From positions 1-45,622 of the forward strand of contig JAVLCF010000003.1 of the NCBI GenBank assembly GCA_031581195.1: DNA of 45,622 bases. The letters run 5' to 3'. The notes below the pieces were generated by a model. That model was given only the letters and a program-made list of their open reading frames with translations. It made no database searches and was not told where the DNA came from. Below are positions 30,060 to 37,297 of this stretch, piece after piece. This stretch comes from Trueperaceae bacterium (GTDB lineage Bacteria > Deinococcota > Deinococci > Deinococcales > Trueperaceae). Each line of letters starts with the position of its first letter. Position 1 is the first letter of the stretch. A program made the translations under genes and the position numbers.

Positions 30060-30401
30060 TCAGTCGAGGAGGGCGTCGGCCCAACGAACGATCGGCGCCC
30101 GGCGCGCCTCGGGCGGGGTGCCGGTCGCCTCCACGCCGTTCGGGCGGGCGGCGACGTGGAGGTGCACCGCCGTGCGTTCCTCGCCGTGCAGCTCGAGCGT
30201 CACGAAGCCCGGCGTCGCGGCGAGCTCGAGGCGGTCGTCGGCGAGGTAGCCGCGGGCCACGGCGAGCGCTTTGATCGCCTGGTTGACGGCGGACGCGCCG
30301 ATCGCCTGGACGGCGACGGTGCGGTCGCGCCGGAGGACGCCGGCGATCGCGCCGGCGACGGCGTGGGGCCGGGACGTTGCGGAGACGCGAAGGGTTTCCA
30401 C
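30060..30401 (-). CDS. SpoVS-like (Alba-fold) protein
   Basis: A 113-residue protein. Residues 1-86 (METLRVSATSRPHAVAGAIAGVLRRDRTVAVQAIGASAVNQAIKALAVARGYL and onward) match the SpoVS family, a small nucleic-acid-binding Alba-like fold named for a Bacillus sporulation protein but common in non-sporulating Deinococcota. About 27 extra C-terminal residues (RPNGVEATGTPPEARRAPIV) follow the normal end. GTG at 30401 has a GGAGGTGG ribosome-binding site. It diverges from the ilv operon, whose promoter begins 50 nt upstream. Confidence 0.82.
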   Translation of the reverse strand: METLRVSATSRPHAVAGAIAGVLRRDRTVAVQAIGASAVNQAIKALAVARGYLADDRLELAATPGFVTLELHGEERTAVHLHVAARPNGVEATGTPPEARRAPIVRWADALLD

Positions 30402-30451: not shown

Positions 30452-30480
30452 TTGACAGGGACGCTAGCAGGCCGTATACT
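30452..30480 (+). promoter_or_regulatory. Near-consensus promoter of the ilv-leu operon
   Basis: TTGACA (30452-30457), a 17-nt spacer and TATACT (30475-30480). The predicted transcription start at about 30487-30489 coincides with the first codon of a leader peptide. Confidence 0.85.
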
Positions 30481-30488
30481 CCGCCGCA

Positions 30489-30569
30489 GTGAGCAACGCC
30501 GCAGCCCCCGTCCGGACCGTGTCGACCCTCGAGGTCGTAGGCCTAGTCGGGTCGGGACGCGCTGCGTAG
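30489..30569 (+). CDS. Putative ilv operon leader peptide
   Basis: A 26-codon frame: GTG start at 30489, then SNAAAPVRTVSTLEVVGLVGSGRAA and a TAG stop (30567-30569). The block LEVVGLVG holds six branched-chain residues (Leu, Val, Val, Leu, Val, with more Val upstream) and uses GTA (Val) and CTA (Leu), both rare in this GC-rich genome. Rare Leu/Val codons at this position are typical of attenuator peptides of ilv/leu operons. The start codon lies 8 nt after the -10 box, so the message would be leaderless. No protein function is expected. Confidence 0.55.
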   Translation: MSNAAAPVRTVSTLEVVGLVGSGRAA

Positions 30570-30664
30570 TCGTTGCATCACGCCACGCACGAAGCGACGT
30601 CCCGCCGACCGCACCTCGGTGGGACGTTCTCGTGCATCGTCAGGTAGGCCGCCCGCGTACGGGC
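30553..30664 (+). promoter_or_regulatory. Putative attenuator of the ilv-leu operon
   Basis: Within the leader, CGGGACG (30553-30559, inside the leader-peptide frame) can pair with CGTCCCG (30598-30604). That segment can alternatively pair with the downstream arm: ACGTCCCGCC (30597-30606) against GGTGGGACGT (30618-30627), with the outer arms GCACGA (30587-30592) and TCGTGC (30630-30635) extending the second structure. A third hairpin GCCCG-CGTA-CGGGC (30651-30664) abuts the GAGGAGG ribosome-binding site of ilvB. There is no U-run, so control may be translational or Rho-linked. Confidence 0.5.
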
Positions 30665-30676
30665 CGAGGAGGAACC

Positions 30677-32371
30677 ATGAACGGTGCCGAAGTCATCATC
30701 CGCGCGCTGGAACGCCACGGGGTCGAGGTCGCCTTCGGGCACCCCGGGGGCGCGATCATGCCCGTGTACGACGCGATCTACGATGGTGACGTCCGGCACG
30801 TCCTGGTCCGTCACGAGCAGGCCGGCGCGCACGCCGCCGACGCCTACTACCGGGCGTCGGGCAAGCCCGGCGTCGTGATCGCCACCAGCGGTCCCGGCGC
30901 GACGAACCTGGTGACGGGCCTGGCGACCGCGATGATGGACAGCAGCGCCGTCGTCGCGATCACCGGCAACGTCCCCACCAGCCTCATCGGGACCGACGCC
31001 TTCCAGGAGGCGGACGTCTACGGGATCACCGGGCCGGTCACGAAGCACAACTTCCTCGTCAAGTCGGTTCAGGACCTCCCCCGCGTCATCGCCGAAGCGT
31101 TCCACATCGCCACGACCGGCCGGCCCGGCCCGGTCCTGGTCGACGTCCCCAAGGACGTCCAGCAGGCGGTCTTCGAGGGCGACCCCGACGCGCCGGTGGA
31201 GGTGGACCTGCCCGGGTTCCAACCCACCTGGAGCGGGCACGCCGGCCAGATCCGCAAGGCCGCCGAAGCGATCCGCGCCGCGGAGAAGCCGGTGATGATG
31301 GTGGGCGGCGGCGGTCAGGTCGCCGCCCCCGAGGTCATGGCGTTCGCCGAACGCCTCGGGGTGCCGGTCATCACGACCCTCATGGGGATCGGGGCGTACC
31401 CCGCGGGCCGCGACCAGGCGCTGGGCATGCCCGGCATGCACGGCACCGTCACCTCCAACCGCGCGATCACGCACTGCGACCTAATCATCGGGGCGGGCCT
31501 GCGCTTCGACGACCGCGTGACGGGCAAGATCAGTCGCTTCGCGCCGAACGCGACGGTCGTCCACATCGACGTCGACCCGGCGGAGATCTCCAAGCTCGTG
31601 CACGCGCACGTGCCGGTCGTCGGGGACTTGCGCGACGTCCTGCCGCGCCTCGCCGACGAGCTGGGGCCGTTGGACGTCGAGCCGTGGTGGGCGCAACTCC
31701 GCGAGTGGAAGGCGCGCTACCCCGAGCGCTACAAGACCGACAAGCCGCTGGTCAGCCAAGAGGTGATCGAGCTCATGCGCGACGTCGTCGGGCCCGACGC
31801 CATCGTCGCGACCGACGTCGGGCAGCACCAGATGTTCGCCGCGCGCCTGTTCCCCACGCACGCCCCGCGCACCTGGATCACGTCCGGGGGGCTCGGGACG
31901 ATGGGCTTCGGGCTGCCCGCCGCGATCGGTGCGGCGTTCGCGAACCCGGGGACGCCGGTCGTGCTGATCGCGGGGGACGGCAGCATCCAAATGAACATCC
32001 AGGAGCTCGCGACGATCCGCAAGCACGACCTGCCGATCTTCATCGCCATCGCCAACAACGGGGTGCTCGGCATGGTGCGGCAGTGGCAGGAGCTGTTCCA
32101 CGCGCAGCGCTACAGCGAGATCTTCCTCGCCGACAGCAACCCCGACTTCGCGAAGCTGGCCGAGGCGTACGGCATCGAGGGGCACAACGTCTTCGATCGC
32201 GAGACCGCCGCGACCCTCGTGCCCGACGTCGTCGCGCGGGGTGGGCCGGCGCTGCTGAACTTCGTGGTGTACGAATCCGAGAAGGTCTTCCCGATGATCC
32301 CCGCCGGCGCCGGCGTCGACGAAATGATGATCGGCGACCAGGAGCCCGAGACGCCCGAGGCGACCTCGTGA
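30677..32371 (+). CDS. ilvB: Acetolactate synthase, large (catalytic) subunit
   Basis: A 564-residue thiamine-diphosphate enzyme that condenses pyruvate to acetolactate (or with 2-oxobutyrate to acetohydroxybutyrate). The ATG at 30677 follows a GAGGAGG site. Landmarks: the catalytic glutamate Glu47 in VRHEQAGAHAADAYYRASGK, the substrate loop TSGPGATNLVTGLATAMMDS, FAD-type central domain, and the diphosphate/Mg motif GDGSIQMNIQELATIRKHDLP with IANNG. The protein is complete. It starts the ilvB-ilvN-ilvC-leuA-cimA cluster, and its stop overlaps ilvN by GTGA. Confidence 0.97.
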   Translation: MNGAEVIIRALERHGVEVAFGHPGGAIMPVYDAIYDGDVRHVLVRHEQAGAHAADAYYRASGKPGVVIATSGPGATNLVTGLATAMMDSSAVVAITGNVPTSLIGTDAFQEADVYGITGPVTKHNFLVKSVQDLPRVIAEAFHIATTGRPGPVLVDVPKDVQQAVFEGDPDAPVEVDLPGFQPTWSGHAGQIRKAAEAIRAAEKPVMMVGGGGQVAAPEVMAFAERLGVPVITTLMGIGAYPAGRDQALGMPGMHGTVTSNRAITHCDLIIGAGLRFDDRVTGKISRFAPNATVVHIDVDPAEISKLVHAHVPVVGDLRDVLPRLADELGPLDVEPWWAQLREWKARYPERYKTDKPLVSQEVIELMRDVVGPDAIVATDVGQHQMFAARLFPTHAPRTWITSGGLGTMGFGLPAAIGAAFANPGTPVVLIAGDGSIQMNIQELATIRKHDLPIFIAIANNGVLGMVRQWQELFHAQRYSEIFLADSNPDFAKLAEAYGIEGHNVFDRETAATLVPDVVARGGPALLNFVVYESEKVFPMIPAGAGVDEMMIGDQEPETPEATS

Positions 32372-32916
32372 GTGGCGTCTCGACGCGGCGCGTCATCTCC
32401 GTCACGGTCCGCGACGAACCGGGTGTCCTCGTCCGCATCGCCGGCCTCTTCGCCCGTCGCGGCTTCAACATCGCGTCGTTGTCCGTCGCGGAATCCGAAA
32501 CGCCCGGCCTCAGCCGAACGACGTTCGTCGTCGACGGGGACCCCGGCACGATCGAGCAGGTGCAGAAGCAACTCCAGAAGCTCGTGGACGTCCTCAAGGT
32601 CGTCGATCACACCGAAACGAACTTCGTCGATCGGGAGCTCATGCTGATCAAGGTCGCGGTGCGCGGCCCCGACGAACGCGTCGAGCTGCGGCAGATCGCG
32701 CAGGACTTCCGCGCGCGGATCGTGGACGTCGCCCGGCGCGCCCTCGTGTTCGAACTGACCGGCGACGAGGGCAAGATGGACGCCTTCATCGACCAAATGC
32801 AGGACTTCGGCATCGTCGAACTCATCCGCACCGGCCGGGTGGCGCTGCCGCGCAGCGCCGGTCGGGCGGCGCGCGGCGGCGAGGGCGCCGTCCAGGAGCG
32901 GGCCGACGTGACCTGA
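32368..32916 (+). CDS. ilvN: Acetolactate synthase, small (regulatory) subunit
   Basis: A 182-residue regulatory subunit with the N-terminal ACT domain ([38 protein letters not shown]) that binds valine for feedback inhibition, and a C-terminal domain ([24 protein letters not shown] onward, with [12 protein letters not shown]). GTG at 32368 overlaps the ilvB stop. The downstream gap of about 100 nt holds a strong hairpin before ilvC. Confidence 0.96.
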
Positions 32917-33019: not shown

Positions 33020-34012
33020 ATGGCCACCATCTACTACGACGACGACGCGAACCTGCAGGTCCTGCAGGGCAAGACGATCGCCATCCTGGGGTTCGGCTCG
33101 CAGGGCCACGCCCACGCGCTGAACGCCCACGCCTCCGGCCTGGACGTCGTCGTCGGCCTGCGCGAGGGGTCCGCCTCGCGCGCCGAGGCGGAGGCCGCCG
33201 GCCTGAAGGTCACCGGCATCGCCGACGCCGCGAAGGCCGGCGACCTGGTGATGGTCCTCCTGCCCGACGAGATCCAGGGGGCGGTCTACGCCCAGGAGAT
33301 CGCGCCGAACCTCGCGCCGGGCGACGCCCTGGCGTTCGCGCACGGCTTCAATCGCGTCTTCCACCAGGTCACGCCCCCCGAGGGCGTCGACGTCGTCATG
33401 ATCGCGCCGAAGGGCCCCGGGCACCTGGTGCGCCGCGTGTTCGTCGAGGGGGGCGGCGTGCCCTGCCTCGTCGCGGTGGACGTCGACGCGACCGGGGAGG
33501 CGATGCCGCGCGCCCTGGCGTACGCCAAGGCGATCGGGGGGACGCGCGGCGGGGCGCTGGAGACGACGTTCCGCGAGGAGACCGAAACCGACCTGTTCGG
33601 CGAGCAGGCGGTGCTGTGCGGCGGCGTGAGCGAACTCATGCAGGCCGGCTTCGACACCCTCGTCGAGGCGGGCTACCAGCCGGAGATCGCCTACTTCGAG
33701 TGCGTGCACGAGATGAAGTTGATCGTCGACCTGATCTACGAGGGCGGCTTCGAGACCATGCGGCACTCGATCAGCAACACCGCCGAGTACGGCGACTACC
33801 GGACCGGGAAGCGCATCGTGACGGAGGAGACCCGCGCGGAGATGCGCGACGTCCTCGAGGAGATCCGCAACGGCACGTTCGCGCAGGAGTTCCTGCTCGA
33901 GAACCGCGTGGGGCAGCCGCGCCTCAAGACCGAACGCGCGGCCAGCGACCGCAGCCTGGTGGCGACCGTGGGCAAGCGACTACGCAAGATGATGTCCTTC
34001 ATCGCGTCGTAG
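33020..34012 (+). CDS. ilvC: Ketol-acid reductoisomerase (class I)
   Basis: A 330-residue NADPH-dependent isomeroreductase of valine and isoleucine synthesis. Rossmann motif [12 protein letters not shown] near residue 25, then [40 protein letters not shown], the metal-binding block [15 protein letters not shown] and [17 protein letters not shown]. Length and motifs fit class I. The ATG is preceded by GAAGGAG. leuA follows after 34 nt. Confidence 0.98.
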
Positions 34013-34046: not shown

Positions 34047-35648
34047 ATGGCCCGCATCAAGATCTTCGACACGACCCTGCGCGACGGCGAGCAGAGCCCC
34101 GGCGTCACGCTCAACCTGCGCGAGAAACGCGAGATCGCGCGCCAGCTCGCGCGGCTCGGCGTGGACGTCATCGAAGCCGGCTTCCCCGTCGCGTCGCCCG
34201 GCGACTTCGAGAGCGTCTCGGAGATCGCGCGGGTCACGGCGGAGGAGAACGCCGACGTCGTCGTCGCCGGCCTCGCGCGCGCGCATCGCGGCGACATCGA
34301 GCGCGCCGCCGCGGCGCTCGAGACCGCCGCGGCGCCGCGCATCCACACCTTCATCGCGACGAGCCCCATCCACATCGAGAAGAAGCTGCAGAGCACGCCC
34401 GACGCCGTGCTCGAGCGGGCGGTGGACGCCGTGAGGTTCGCGAAGTCGTTCGTGGACGACGTCGAGTTCAGCGCCGAGGACGCCGGCCGGAGCGACCCGG
34501 CGTTCCTCGAAGCGATCTTCGCTGCGACCGTGGACGCCGGCGCGACCACCATCAACGTGCCCGACACGGTCGGCTACATGACGCCGTGGGAGTACGGCGC
34601 GTTGATCGAACGCCTGCGGGAGCGGGTGCCGGCGTTGCGCGACGTCGACCTGTCGACGCACTGTCACGACGACCTGGGCCTCGCGGTCGCCAACTCGCTC
34701 GCCGGCGTGCGGGCGGGCGCGACGCAGGTCGAGTGCACCCTCAACGGCATCGGGGAGCGCGCCGGGAACGCCAGCCTCGAGGAGATCGTCATGGCGCTCG
34801 AGACGCGCGCCGACGTGTGGGGGCACGCGACGAACGTGACGACCCGCGAGCTGTACCGCACGTCGCGGATGGTGTCGATGATGACGGGGATGGTGGTGCC
34901 ACCCAACAAGGCGGTCGTCGGCGACAACGCCTTCGCGCACGAGTCCGGCATCCACCAGGACGGCGTCATCAAGGCGGTCGAGACGTACGAAATCATGTCC
35001 GCCGAGACCGTCGGGCGGGACGCCGGCGTGCTCGTCATGGGCAAGCACTCGGGGCGTCGCGCCTTCCGCGCGACGCTGCAGGACCTCGGGTACGCCGCGT
35101 TCGAGGAGGCGGACCTCGACCGCCTGTTCGCGGAGTTCAAGGACCTCGCCGACCGCAAGGCGACCGTCACCAGCGAGGACATCCGCGCACTGGTCGACGC
35201 GGAAACCACCCGCGTGCCGGAGACGTACGCGTTGCGCCGCGTGCAGTTCCAGAGCGGGACCGGCGTCACGCCGGTCGCGACGGTCGAGGTGGAGATCGAC
35301 GGCGAAGCGCGCGAGGAGGCGTCGGTCGGTGACGGGCCGGTCGACGCGATCTACCACGCGATCGAGCGGTTGACGGGCCGCGCGTTGCGGCTCGAGTCGT
35401 ACGAGATCCGCTCGGTCGGTCACGGCAAGGACGCGCTCGGCGAGGTCACCGTCCGCGCCCGCGAAGGGGACCGCGTCGTGCATGCGCGCGGGCTGTCGAC
35501 CGACGTCGTCGAGGCGTCGGCGAAGGCGTACCTGGAGGCCATGAACAAGCTCGCCGCCGGCCTCGGCCGACCCGACGGCGGACCGCGGCCCGACGACGTC
35601 GTCCCGAGCGAACCGGCCGACGACGCGCGCGGCGCCGCAGCGTCGTGA
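34047..35648 (+). CDS. leuA: 2-isopropylmalate synthase
   Basis: A 533-residue enzyme condensing 2-ketoisovalerate with acetyl-CoA, first step of leucine synthesis. N-terminal TIM-barrel signature [17 protein letters not shown], metal site [32 protein letters not shown]-terminal LeuA regulatory domain from about residue 395 ([21 protein letters not shown]) is expected to bind leucine. A GGGAGGT site precedes the ATG. About 20 Asp/Ala/Pro residues form a tail. The TGA overlaps the cimA GTG start. The barrel sequence favours LeuA over homocitrate synthase, but that is by eye. Confidence 0.94.
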
Positions 35649-37297
35649 GCGTCGAGATCTACGACACCACCCTGCGCGACGGGACGCAGGGGATCGGGTT
35701 CGCGTTGACGAGCGCCGACAAGGTCGCCGTCGCCCGGCGCCTCGACGCGTTCGGGGTCGACGCGATCGAGGGGGGCTGGCCGGGCTCGAACCCCCGCGAC
35801 GTCGAGTTCTTCGAGCGGATGCGCGACGTGCCGCTCGCGCGGGCGCGCCTCGCGGCGTTCGGCAGCACCCGCCACAAGGACGTCGCGCCGGAGGACGACG
35901 CCAACCTCGCGGCGTTGGTGGCGGCCGGGACGCCGGTCGTGACGGTGTTCGGCAAGGCGTGGACGCTGCACGTCCGCGAGGCGCTCGGCACCGACCTGGA
36001 GACGAACCTGGCGATGATTCGCGAGTCCGTCGCGTTCCTCGTCGCGCAGGGACGCGAGGTCGTCTACGACGCCGAACACTTCTTCGACGGTGCGCGCGAG
36101 GACGCGGCCTACGCCCACGCGACCCTCGAGGCGGCCGCCGAGGGCGGCGCGTCGCGGCTGGTGGTGTGCGACACGAACGGCGGCACGTTGCCCGACGTCG
36201 TCGCGGACCGCACGCGCGAGGTGGTGGCGCGGTTCGGCGTCCCGATCGGCATCCACGCGCACAACGACGCGGAGCTGGCGGTCGCGAACAGCCTCGCGGC
36301 GGTCTCGGCCGGCGCTCGGCACGTGCAGGGCACGATCGGCGGGTACGGCGAGCGCGCCGGGAACGCCAACCTCGTGTCGATCACCGCGAACCTGGCGTTC
36401 AAGCTCGGCTTCGACCAGCCGCAGGACCTCGCGCACGTCCGCGAGGTCGCGCGGTACGTCGACGAGCGCGCCAACCTATCGCCGAACCCGCGCGCACCGT
36501 ACGTCGGCGACGGCGCCTTCGCGCACAAGGGCGGCGTGCACGTCTCCGCGGTGGCGAAGCGCCCGGAGAGCTACGAGCACCTCCCCCCCGAAGCGGTCGG
36601 CAACGAACGGCGGGTGTTGGTCTCCGACCTCTCCGGCCGCGCCAACGTCCTCGCGATGGGGGAGGGGCCGTTCCCCGCCGGCGACGGTGCGGTGGGGGAC
36701 GGCGCCCGCGAGGTCGTCGCGAAACTCAAGGAGCTCGAGCACCGCGGGTACGCCTTCGAGGGCGCGGAAGCGTCGTTCCGGCTGATGGCGGCGAAGGTGC
36801 GCGGCGAGCACCGTCCCTACTTCGATCTGGGGGGCTTCACGGTGGTGATCGACAAGCGCGACGCCGACCGCGTGCCCCGCGCCGAGGCGTCGATCAAGGT
36901 GGCGGTCGGGGACGCCGAGGAGCACACCGCCGCCGACGGCGACGGACCCGTCCACGCCCTCGACCGGGCGCTCGGCAAGGCGCTCGAGCGGTTCTACCCG
37001 TCGCTCGCCGACCTCGAGCTGGTCGACTACAAGGTGCGGGTGTTGTCGGGGGAGGAGACCGGCACCGCCAGCGTCATTCGCGTGCAGGTGGAGTACGGCG
37101 ACGGCGAGGCGACGTGGGGCACGGTCGGCGCGAGCACCGACATCATCGACGCGTCGTACCAGGCGTTGATCGACGCGATCGAGTACAAGCTCGTCAAGGA
37201 CGGCGTCGCGCCGCGACCGCGCGGGGCGGCGCAGGCCGAGGCGGGCGTCGCCGAGGCCTCCACGAACGCCGCCGGCGAGGGCCCGCCGGTCGCCTGA
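35645..37297 (+). CDS. cimA: (R)-citramalate synthase
   Basis: A 550-residue member of the LeuA superfamily. The N-terminus [19 protein letters not shown] and [15 protein letters not shown] are specific to the CimA/LeuA-like group that condenses pyruvate with acetyl-CoA to citramalate, an entry to 2-oxobutyrate and isoleucine that bypasses threonine. Other landmarks are [14 protein letters not shown] and [17 protein letters not shown]-terminal regulatory domain follows. GTG at 35645 overlaps leuA by GTGA. The last ~30 residues are Ala-rich. A terminator follows at 37320-37360. Confidence 0.92.

Follow-up and report, generated by a model that had tools for sequence, protein, structure and literature searches.

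Predicted leaderless attenuator peptides upstream of ilvB in a Trueperaceae bacterium and across an order of Deinococcota

The region upstream of ilvB in the window (the whole analysed stretch of 45,622 nucleotides from a Trueperaceae bacterium) is, in our judgement, very probably a ribosome-mediated transcription attenuator of the downstream genes ilvBNC-leuA-cimA, of which the leader peptide would be translated from a leaderless message. The first-pass annotation of this DNA, made from the letters of the window, had already proposed an attenuator with a branched-chain amino acid (BCAA) leader peptide in a Deinococcota-like host, and the conserved frame, its codon bias and the covarying terminator arms described herewith uphold this proposal. 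An ilvB leader of this kind is already known from Actinobacteria, and its counterparts now appear across an order of Deinococcota. It would represent a conserved and testable amino-acid switch in a phylum for which leaderless expression is described as common (PMC12340547).

The leader region and its genes in the window

The features of the leader and of the genes behind it are summarized in Table 1. In the segment 29900-31000, the TTGACA-N17-TATACT promoter pointed out in the first-pass annotation proved to be the sole promoter-like match, agreeing with the consensus at 11 of 12 positions (mean of 0.0 matches in 50 shuffles). The exact pattern is present in 2 copies in the 2.45-Mb genome, and with up to two mismatches 25 sites were detected versus 2 for the reversed-pattern control. 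Since several of these 25 sites precede tRNA genes or 16S rRNA, the sequence probably represents the housekeeping consensus; leaders of the ilvB type follow it at only two of them, the ilvB leader itself and a leuC leader (L172) located at a contig end.

Table 1. Coordinates of the predicted leader elements and of the downstream genes in the window
Feature	Position	Strand	Remark
Promoter TTGACA-N17-TATACT	30452..30480	+	TTGACA 30452-30457, TATACT 30475-30480
Predicted leaderless leader peptide frame of 26 codons, from GTG to TAG	30489..30569	+	TAG 30567-30569
Putative regulatory codons GTC GTA GGC CTA GTC	30534..30548	+	in-frame CTA/GTA excess
CGGGACG, 5' strand of alternative (antiterminator) pairing	30553..30559	+	covariation across families
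Shared arm (hairpin 5' arm, antiterminator 3' strand)	30596..30608	+	holds CGTCCCG 30598-30604
3' arm of terminator-like hairpin	30616..30628	+	holds GGGACGT 30621-30627
U-poor tail TTCTCGTG	30627..30634	+	4 T in 8
Last hairpin of the first-pass annotation, GCCCG-CGTA-CGGGC, unsupported as functional	30651..30664	+	can be drawn
GAGGAGG, ilvB ribosome-binding site	30666..30672	+	Shine-Dalgarno-like word before ilvB in 67/72 loci
ilvB, acetolactate synthase large subunit	30677..32371	+	TIGR00118, E 2.8e-228
ilvN, acetolactate synthase small subunit	32368..32916	+	
ilvC, ketol-acid reductoisomerase	33020..34012	+	
leuA, 2-isopropylmalate synthase	34047..35648	+	
cimA, citramalate synthase	35645..37297	+	

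The GTG at 30489 is positioned 8 nt past the -10 box and opens the frame VSNAAAPVRTVSTLEVVGLVGSGRAA, which had been picked out for its rare GTA and CTA codons; their rarity was confirmed in ilvB, ilvC, leuA and cimA of the window, where GTA is absent and CTA occurs 3 times among 1981 codons. The transcript is predicted to start at this GTG or within about 2 nt of it. The genes ilvB, ilvN, ilvC, leuA and cimA would form one transcript, and because all five lie downstream, the pathways to valine, leucine and isoleucine could be under the control of a single leader.

An N-terminally extended IlvB, starting in the frame that is open from 30377, was considered but dismissed: the TIGR00118 alignment begins at residue 1, and in several relatives (G016, G028 and G061 among them) the open frame is only 564-565 aa, leaving no room for an extension. 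A known RNA family was likewise ruled out: at the gathering score of Rfam 15, neither the window nor any of 15 loci gave a match, and at relaxed E no Rfam leader family appeared at E <=1 in 14 loci or at E <=5 in the window stretch, the only strong match being an unrelated tRNA. On the other side, the ilv leader adjoins a divergent spoVS-like gene (30060-30401, minus strand; Pfam SpoVS, E 3.9e-33).

Comparison of ilvB upstream regions

The first-pass annotation had called for an alignment of the relatives, and both a conserved frame of BCAA codons and a covarying stem were found among them. The ilvB gene was found in 107 of 111 genomes examined from the window's order, some of the loci not used below lacking the 5' end. 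A total of 72 upstream regions were compared, 70 from this order (32 from f1, the family of the window, 3 from f2, 4 from f3, 11 from f4 and 20 from f5) and one each from Thermus igniterrae (L032) and Meiothermus taiwanensis (L038), two loci that may duplicate species already among the 70. The latter two were taken from 80 loci, mostly of other phyla, that a scan of genome contigs had yielded. As their leaders are nearly identical to those of f5, we infer that f5 corresponds to Thermaceae; f1 is probably Trueperaceae. Leaderless initiation would thereby be tied to attenuation in Thermus, which is genetically manipulable.

For each locus the best promoter match within 400 nt was taken, so that the presence of a promoter in 72/72 loci is in part due to selection, while the distance to the start codon was left unselected except in L004. 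The -35 box reads TTGACA in 70 loci and TTGACG in 2, the spacer is 16-18 nt long in all 72, and the -10 box conforms to TANNNT in 70, with one CATACT and one GATACT. The first ATG or GTG follows the -10 box by 6-10 nt in 72/72 loci (6 nt in 1, 7 nt in 5, 8 nt in 27, 9 nt in 8 and 10 nt in 31); the single distance of 6 is that of L004, for which the GTG of a BCAA-rich frame was chosen by hand, an ATG 2 nt earlier giving only 11 aa. The leader frames are 16-36 codons long in all loci. Shine-Dalgarno-like words of at least 4 nt precede the leader in 3/72 loci (none in 69/72) and ilvB in 67/72. The message is predicted to be leaderless, the start codon lying too near the -10 box for a Shine-Dalgarno site. 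This arrangement agrees with that of the leaderless genes of D. radiodurans, in which about 6-7 bp separate the -10 motif from the open reading frame and which are described as common in the phylum (PMC12340547); the genes described there encode proteins, while ours are leader peptides, and the main text of that paper does not contain the terms leader peptide, attenuat- or ilv. In the ilvB leaders of f4 and f5 (L121-L151), AAG stands directly 5' of the start codon in 29/31 (as CAAG or TAAG) and GAG in 2, and the 5' untranslated region would be about 3 nt long if transcription began 7 nt past the -10 box.

The codon CTA was identified in 71 of the 72 leaders, L030 carrying neither CTA nor GTA. 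After counting by frame in the 70 distinct leaders, CTA amounted to 144 of 1563 in-frame codons (9.2%) versus 12/1493 and 7/1493 in the other frames (0.6% taken together); the comparison with the 19/2986 out of frame gives a Fisher p of 3e-48, which overstates the number of independent events because the leaders are related by descent. GTA (75 in frame versus 15 and 1) and ATT (59 versus 9 and 3) behave in the same way, and since the excess of all three codons is frame-specific, the leader frames appear to be read as codons. Together the Leu, Ile and Val codons account for 37.8% in frame; the corresponding shares are 13.7% and 8.0% for the two alternative frames and 21.8% for the window genes. 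Among Leu codons, CTA makes up 50/119 in 32 distinct leaders (f1 plus the two named loci) and 40/1325 in 32 ilvB genes, which come largely from the same loci. The choice of CTA, GTA and ATT indicates strong selection among synonymous codons inside such short frames. The leader had been described as rich in Val and Leu, and codons for both are indeed enriched, but the set also takes in Ile (59 ATT and 48 ATC codons in the 70 leaders).

The peptide sequence itself is poorly conserved between families, as might be expected if the leaderless frame were translated for some other purpose, as a small protein or for feeding ribosomes to ilvB, and were followed by an ordinary hairpin with no response to amino acids. 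We consider this quite unlikely: BCAA codons are concentrated in frame with preference for the rarest synonyms CTA and GTA, the distance from leader stop to ilvB (60-219 nt) is long for reinitiation, and the alternative pairings described below covary. Chance occurrence of promoter, frame and hairpins, or their service for ilvB transcription only, is in turn extremely improbable; taken by itself, the window genome offers a short frame and an antiterminator that pairs only modestly above shuffles, but the same architecture is found in 72/72 loci together with the frame-specific codon bias.

Hairpins and the proposed mechanism

The terminator-like hairpin of the window (30596-30628) consists of 13 pairs, and the 56 nt around it fold at -33.6 kcal/mol (z -5.6). 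The first-pass annotation had noted the absence of a U-run; the tail is indeed U-poor, and a consensus terminator scan of the window region did not report this hairpin, but its 4 T in 8 nt exceed those of nearly all tRNA-gene hairpins of the same genome. In this yardstick, based on 13 of the 14 tRNAs found by aragorn and rough in that several tRNAs sit in arrays, the hairpins behind 12 tRNA genes carry 0-3 T in 8 nt and one carries 5. Because 12/13 thus have fewer T, the U-poor tail is ordinary for the window genome. The closest relative (L003; ilvB protein 96% identical) carries TTTTCGT at the position of the tail.

Between leader stop and ilvB, a hairpin of -11 kcal/mol or better was found in 72/72 loci and of -12 or better in 71/72, the last one being at -11.2; for L114, the hairpin adjoining the leader was used instead of one located 164 nt past the stop. 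The fold of the 75 nt past the leader stop beats 95% of shuffles in 62/72 loci, and the 8 nt past the hairpin include at least 4 T in 63/72 and at least 5 T in 54/72 loci (expectation 1.6). The two terminator arms pair at -21.2 kcal/mol versus -13.6 when exchanged among species (0/2000 permutations), and 0/2000 was also obtained within each of f1, f4 and f5; because the arms were picked for pairing, this comparison shows change with kept pairing and is not an unbiased test.

CGGGACG and GGGACGT had been proposed as competing partners of CGTCCCG, and all three motifs lie where the proposal had placed them (Table 1). The alternative pairing was assessed for the leader-frame end against the 5' arm of the hairpin, an arm that was not picked for such pairing. 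For all loci the own partners pair at -18.4 versus -16.1 for permuted ones (0/2000), and after reduction to a single locus for each of 31 genera at -14.2 versus -12.3 (0/2000). Covariation was detected within f4 (0/2000); it was not detected within f1 (159/2000, or 528/2000 after the same reduction by genus), nor within f5 (1293/2000), where the sequences are alike. In the window the alternative pairing reaches -18.2 kcal/mol, a value matched by 159/2000 shuffled tails, and its shared arm pairs equally well with the leaders of 5 among the 71 other loci. The comparison therefore supports the predicted alternative pairing for the order, while the window is no more than compatible with it.

The first-pass annotation had suggested that control may be translational. 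In this reading, translation of the leader would act by way of the last hairpin to make the ilvB ribosome-binding site more or less accessible, without termination. The hairpin can be drawn beside GAGGAGG, and the U-poor terminator tail of the window would suit such a mechanism. As to function, however, the last 45 nt before ilvB in the window fold no better than shuffles (p 0.76), and in f1 none of the 30 testable loci (of 32) exceeds shuffles at p 0.05. The stem shared among the species is instead the terminator-like hairpin trailed by T in 63/72 loci, which in f1 ends 19-86 nt before ilvB. Control by translation alone is therefore unlikely. In f4 and f5, only 6-33 nt separate the end of the leader hairpin from ilvB, which speaks for the translational reading there, and because of this short distance an added translational effect of the leader hairpin is possible in these two families.

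For the transcription attenuator favoured here, we infer stalling, termination and the response to amino acids as follows. A ribosome needing no Shine-Dalgarno site would translate the leader peptide from a leaderless message, because transcription is predicted to begin at or within about 2 nt of GTG 30489. Under scarcity of charged Val-, Leu- or Ile-tRNA, the ribosome would wait at the rare GTA and CTA codons (30537-30545), leaving CGGGACG free for pairing with the shared arm, and the polymerase would continue into ilvB. When charged tRNAs are plentiful, the ribosome would reach TAG 30567 and cover most of CGGGACG, the shared arm would fold into the terminator-like hairpin, and transcription would end before ilvB. 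This is the classical logic of the enteric ilv and leu attenuators, and the leu leader of E. coli also uses rare CUA codons. The geometry was examined by arithmetic with a footprint of 26 nt centred on the stalled codon, an estimate applied to M. tuberculosis ilvB1 (PMC13236596): on GTA 30537-30539 the footprint would end near 30550, with CGGGACG free, and on TAG 30567 it would begin near 30555, covering most of CGGGACG.

Leaderless ilvB, leu and trp leader peptides have been reported for Streptomyces lividans (PMC8079986) and a leaderless ilvB leader peptide for Corynebacterium diphtheriae (PMC5784534). In these species, a BCAA-codon-rich peptide precedes ilvB with hairpins in between, as found here, but those leaders belong to another phylum, have 13-15 residues as printed (16-36 here) and have the transcript start mapped at the leader start codon, whereas the start is predicted in our case; the strong preference for CTA, GTA and ATT also sets the present leaders apart. 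Attenuation of ilvB by BCAA has been reported in Corynebacterium (ilvB-II motif, PMC10272879) and for M. tuberculosis ilvB1NC (PMC13236596). These systems agree with the attenuator predicted here in an upstream frame of Ile, Val and Leu codons, a terminator and an antiterminator sharing one arm, and a stalling model; they rest on experiments, while the present loci are known from sequence. The ilvB leaders of Actinobacteria had been predicted in 2005, and mutation of the candidate codons in S. coelicolor was, as stated in PMC1262725, without effect, which calls for caution with a purely comparative case. A report of an ilv, leu or trp leader of Deinococcota was not found in the open-licence literature, a result that does not extend to absence from print. 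Earlier publications on leu and trp of Thermus may contain such leaders.

Leaders in front of leuC and trpE

In 31 of 36 upstream regions of leuC, we identified a short frame starting 6-10 nt past a -10 box and carrying one or more CTA codons; the scan was biased towards CTA and missed 5/36 regions, among which a frame is visible by eye in G010 and the leader of G024 lies on another contig. Leaders of this type were absent upstream of ilvD in 9/9 genomes by the same scan. For trpE, 6 of 9 genomes, all of f4 or f5, show a short WW or WWW frame just past a -10 box, with a GC-rich hairpin behind the frame (L177, L179, L180, L182, L183 and L186); the promoter was found by the scan in 4 of the 6, and the -10 box was read by eye in the other 2. 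These frames are probable leaderless trp attenuators. WW is absent from the trpE upstream regions of the three f1 genomes examined, and no trpE leader was seen in the genome of the window. Because CTA leaders precede leuC and Trp leaders precede trpE, this specificity counts in favour of the ilvB attenuator.

A peptide motif, R-[RK]-R-L, recurs in the leuC leaders of f1, which supply all 22 cases among the 31 leaders, and residue 15 of the block is Leu encoded by CTA in 22/22. The codon of the first Arg varies (AGA 5, CGC 5, CGT 4, CGA 4, CGG 3, AGG 1), the Leu at position 4 is encoded by CTG, CTC, TTG or CTT and never by CTA, and the motif is preceded by 3 to 13 residues, the length past CTA being likewise variable. 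Such synonymous change at fixed spacing argues for selection on the nascent peptide. A profile made from 19 leaders matched 27 of the 39 f1 genomes (E <=1.7e-6, one such match each), whereas the 72 genomes outside f1 yielded only six matches, of E 0.007-0.041. In five further genomes (G005, G006, G024, G025 and G027), CTA is found at position 15 in all, with leuC downstream in the 4 in which the contig continues. There also exist f1 leuC leaders lacking R-[RK]-R-L, for instance in G036 and G037.

The leuC leader peptide R-[RK]-R-L-x10-L(CTA) is thus a candidate for a sequence-dependent pausing peptide, in which case it would be a leucine-linked nascent-chain sensor. The wider reading, that ilvB, leuC and partly trpE are controlled throughout an order of Deinococcota by attenuators with all-leaderless peptides, so that sensing depends on 5'-end initiation, and that the f1 member at leuC is a new pausing peptide R-[RK]-R-L-x10-L(CUA), the nascent chain and the rare Leu codon being read together, is offered tentatively, as its two parts together fall somewhat short of an even chance. 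In the genome of the window, the leuC leader (L284, L172) is located on the minus strand of contig C78. In two f1 trpE regions (L181 and L184), separate Trp codons (..PSW....RWRR..) were noticed right after TATACT, and these frames look by eye like a different type of trp leader in f1.
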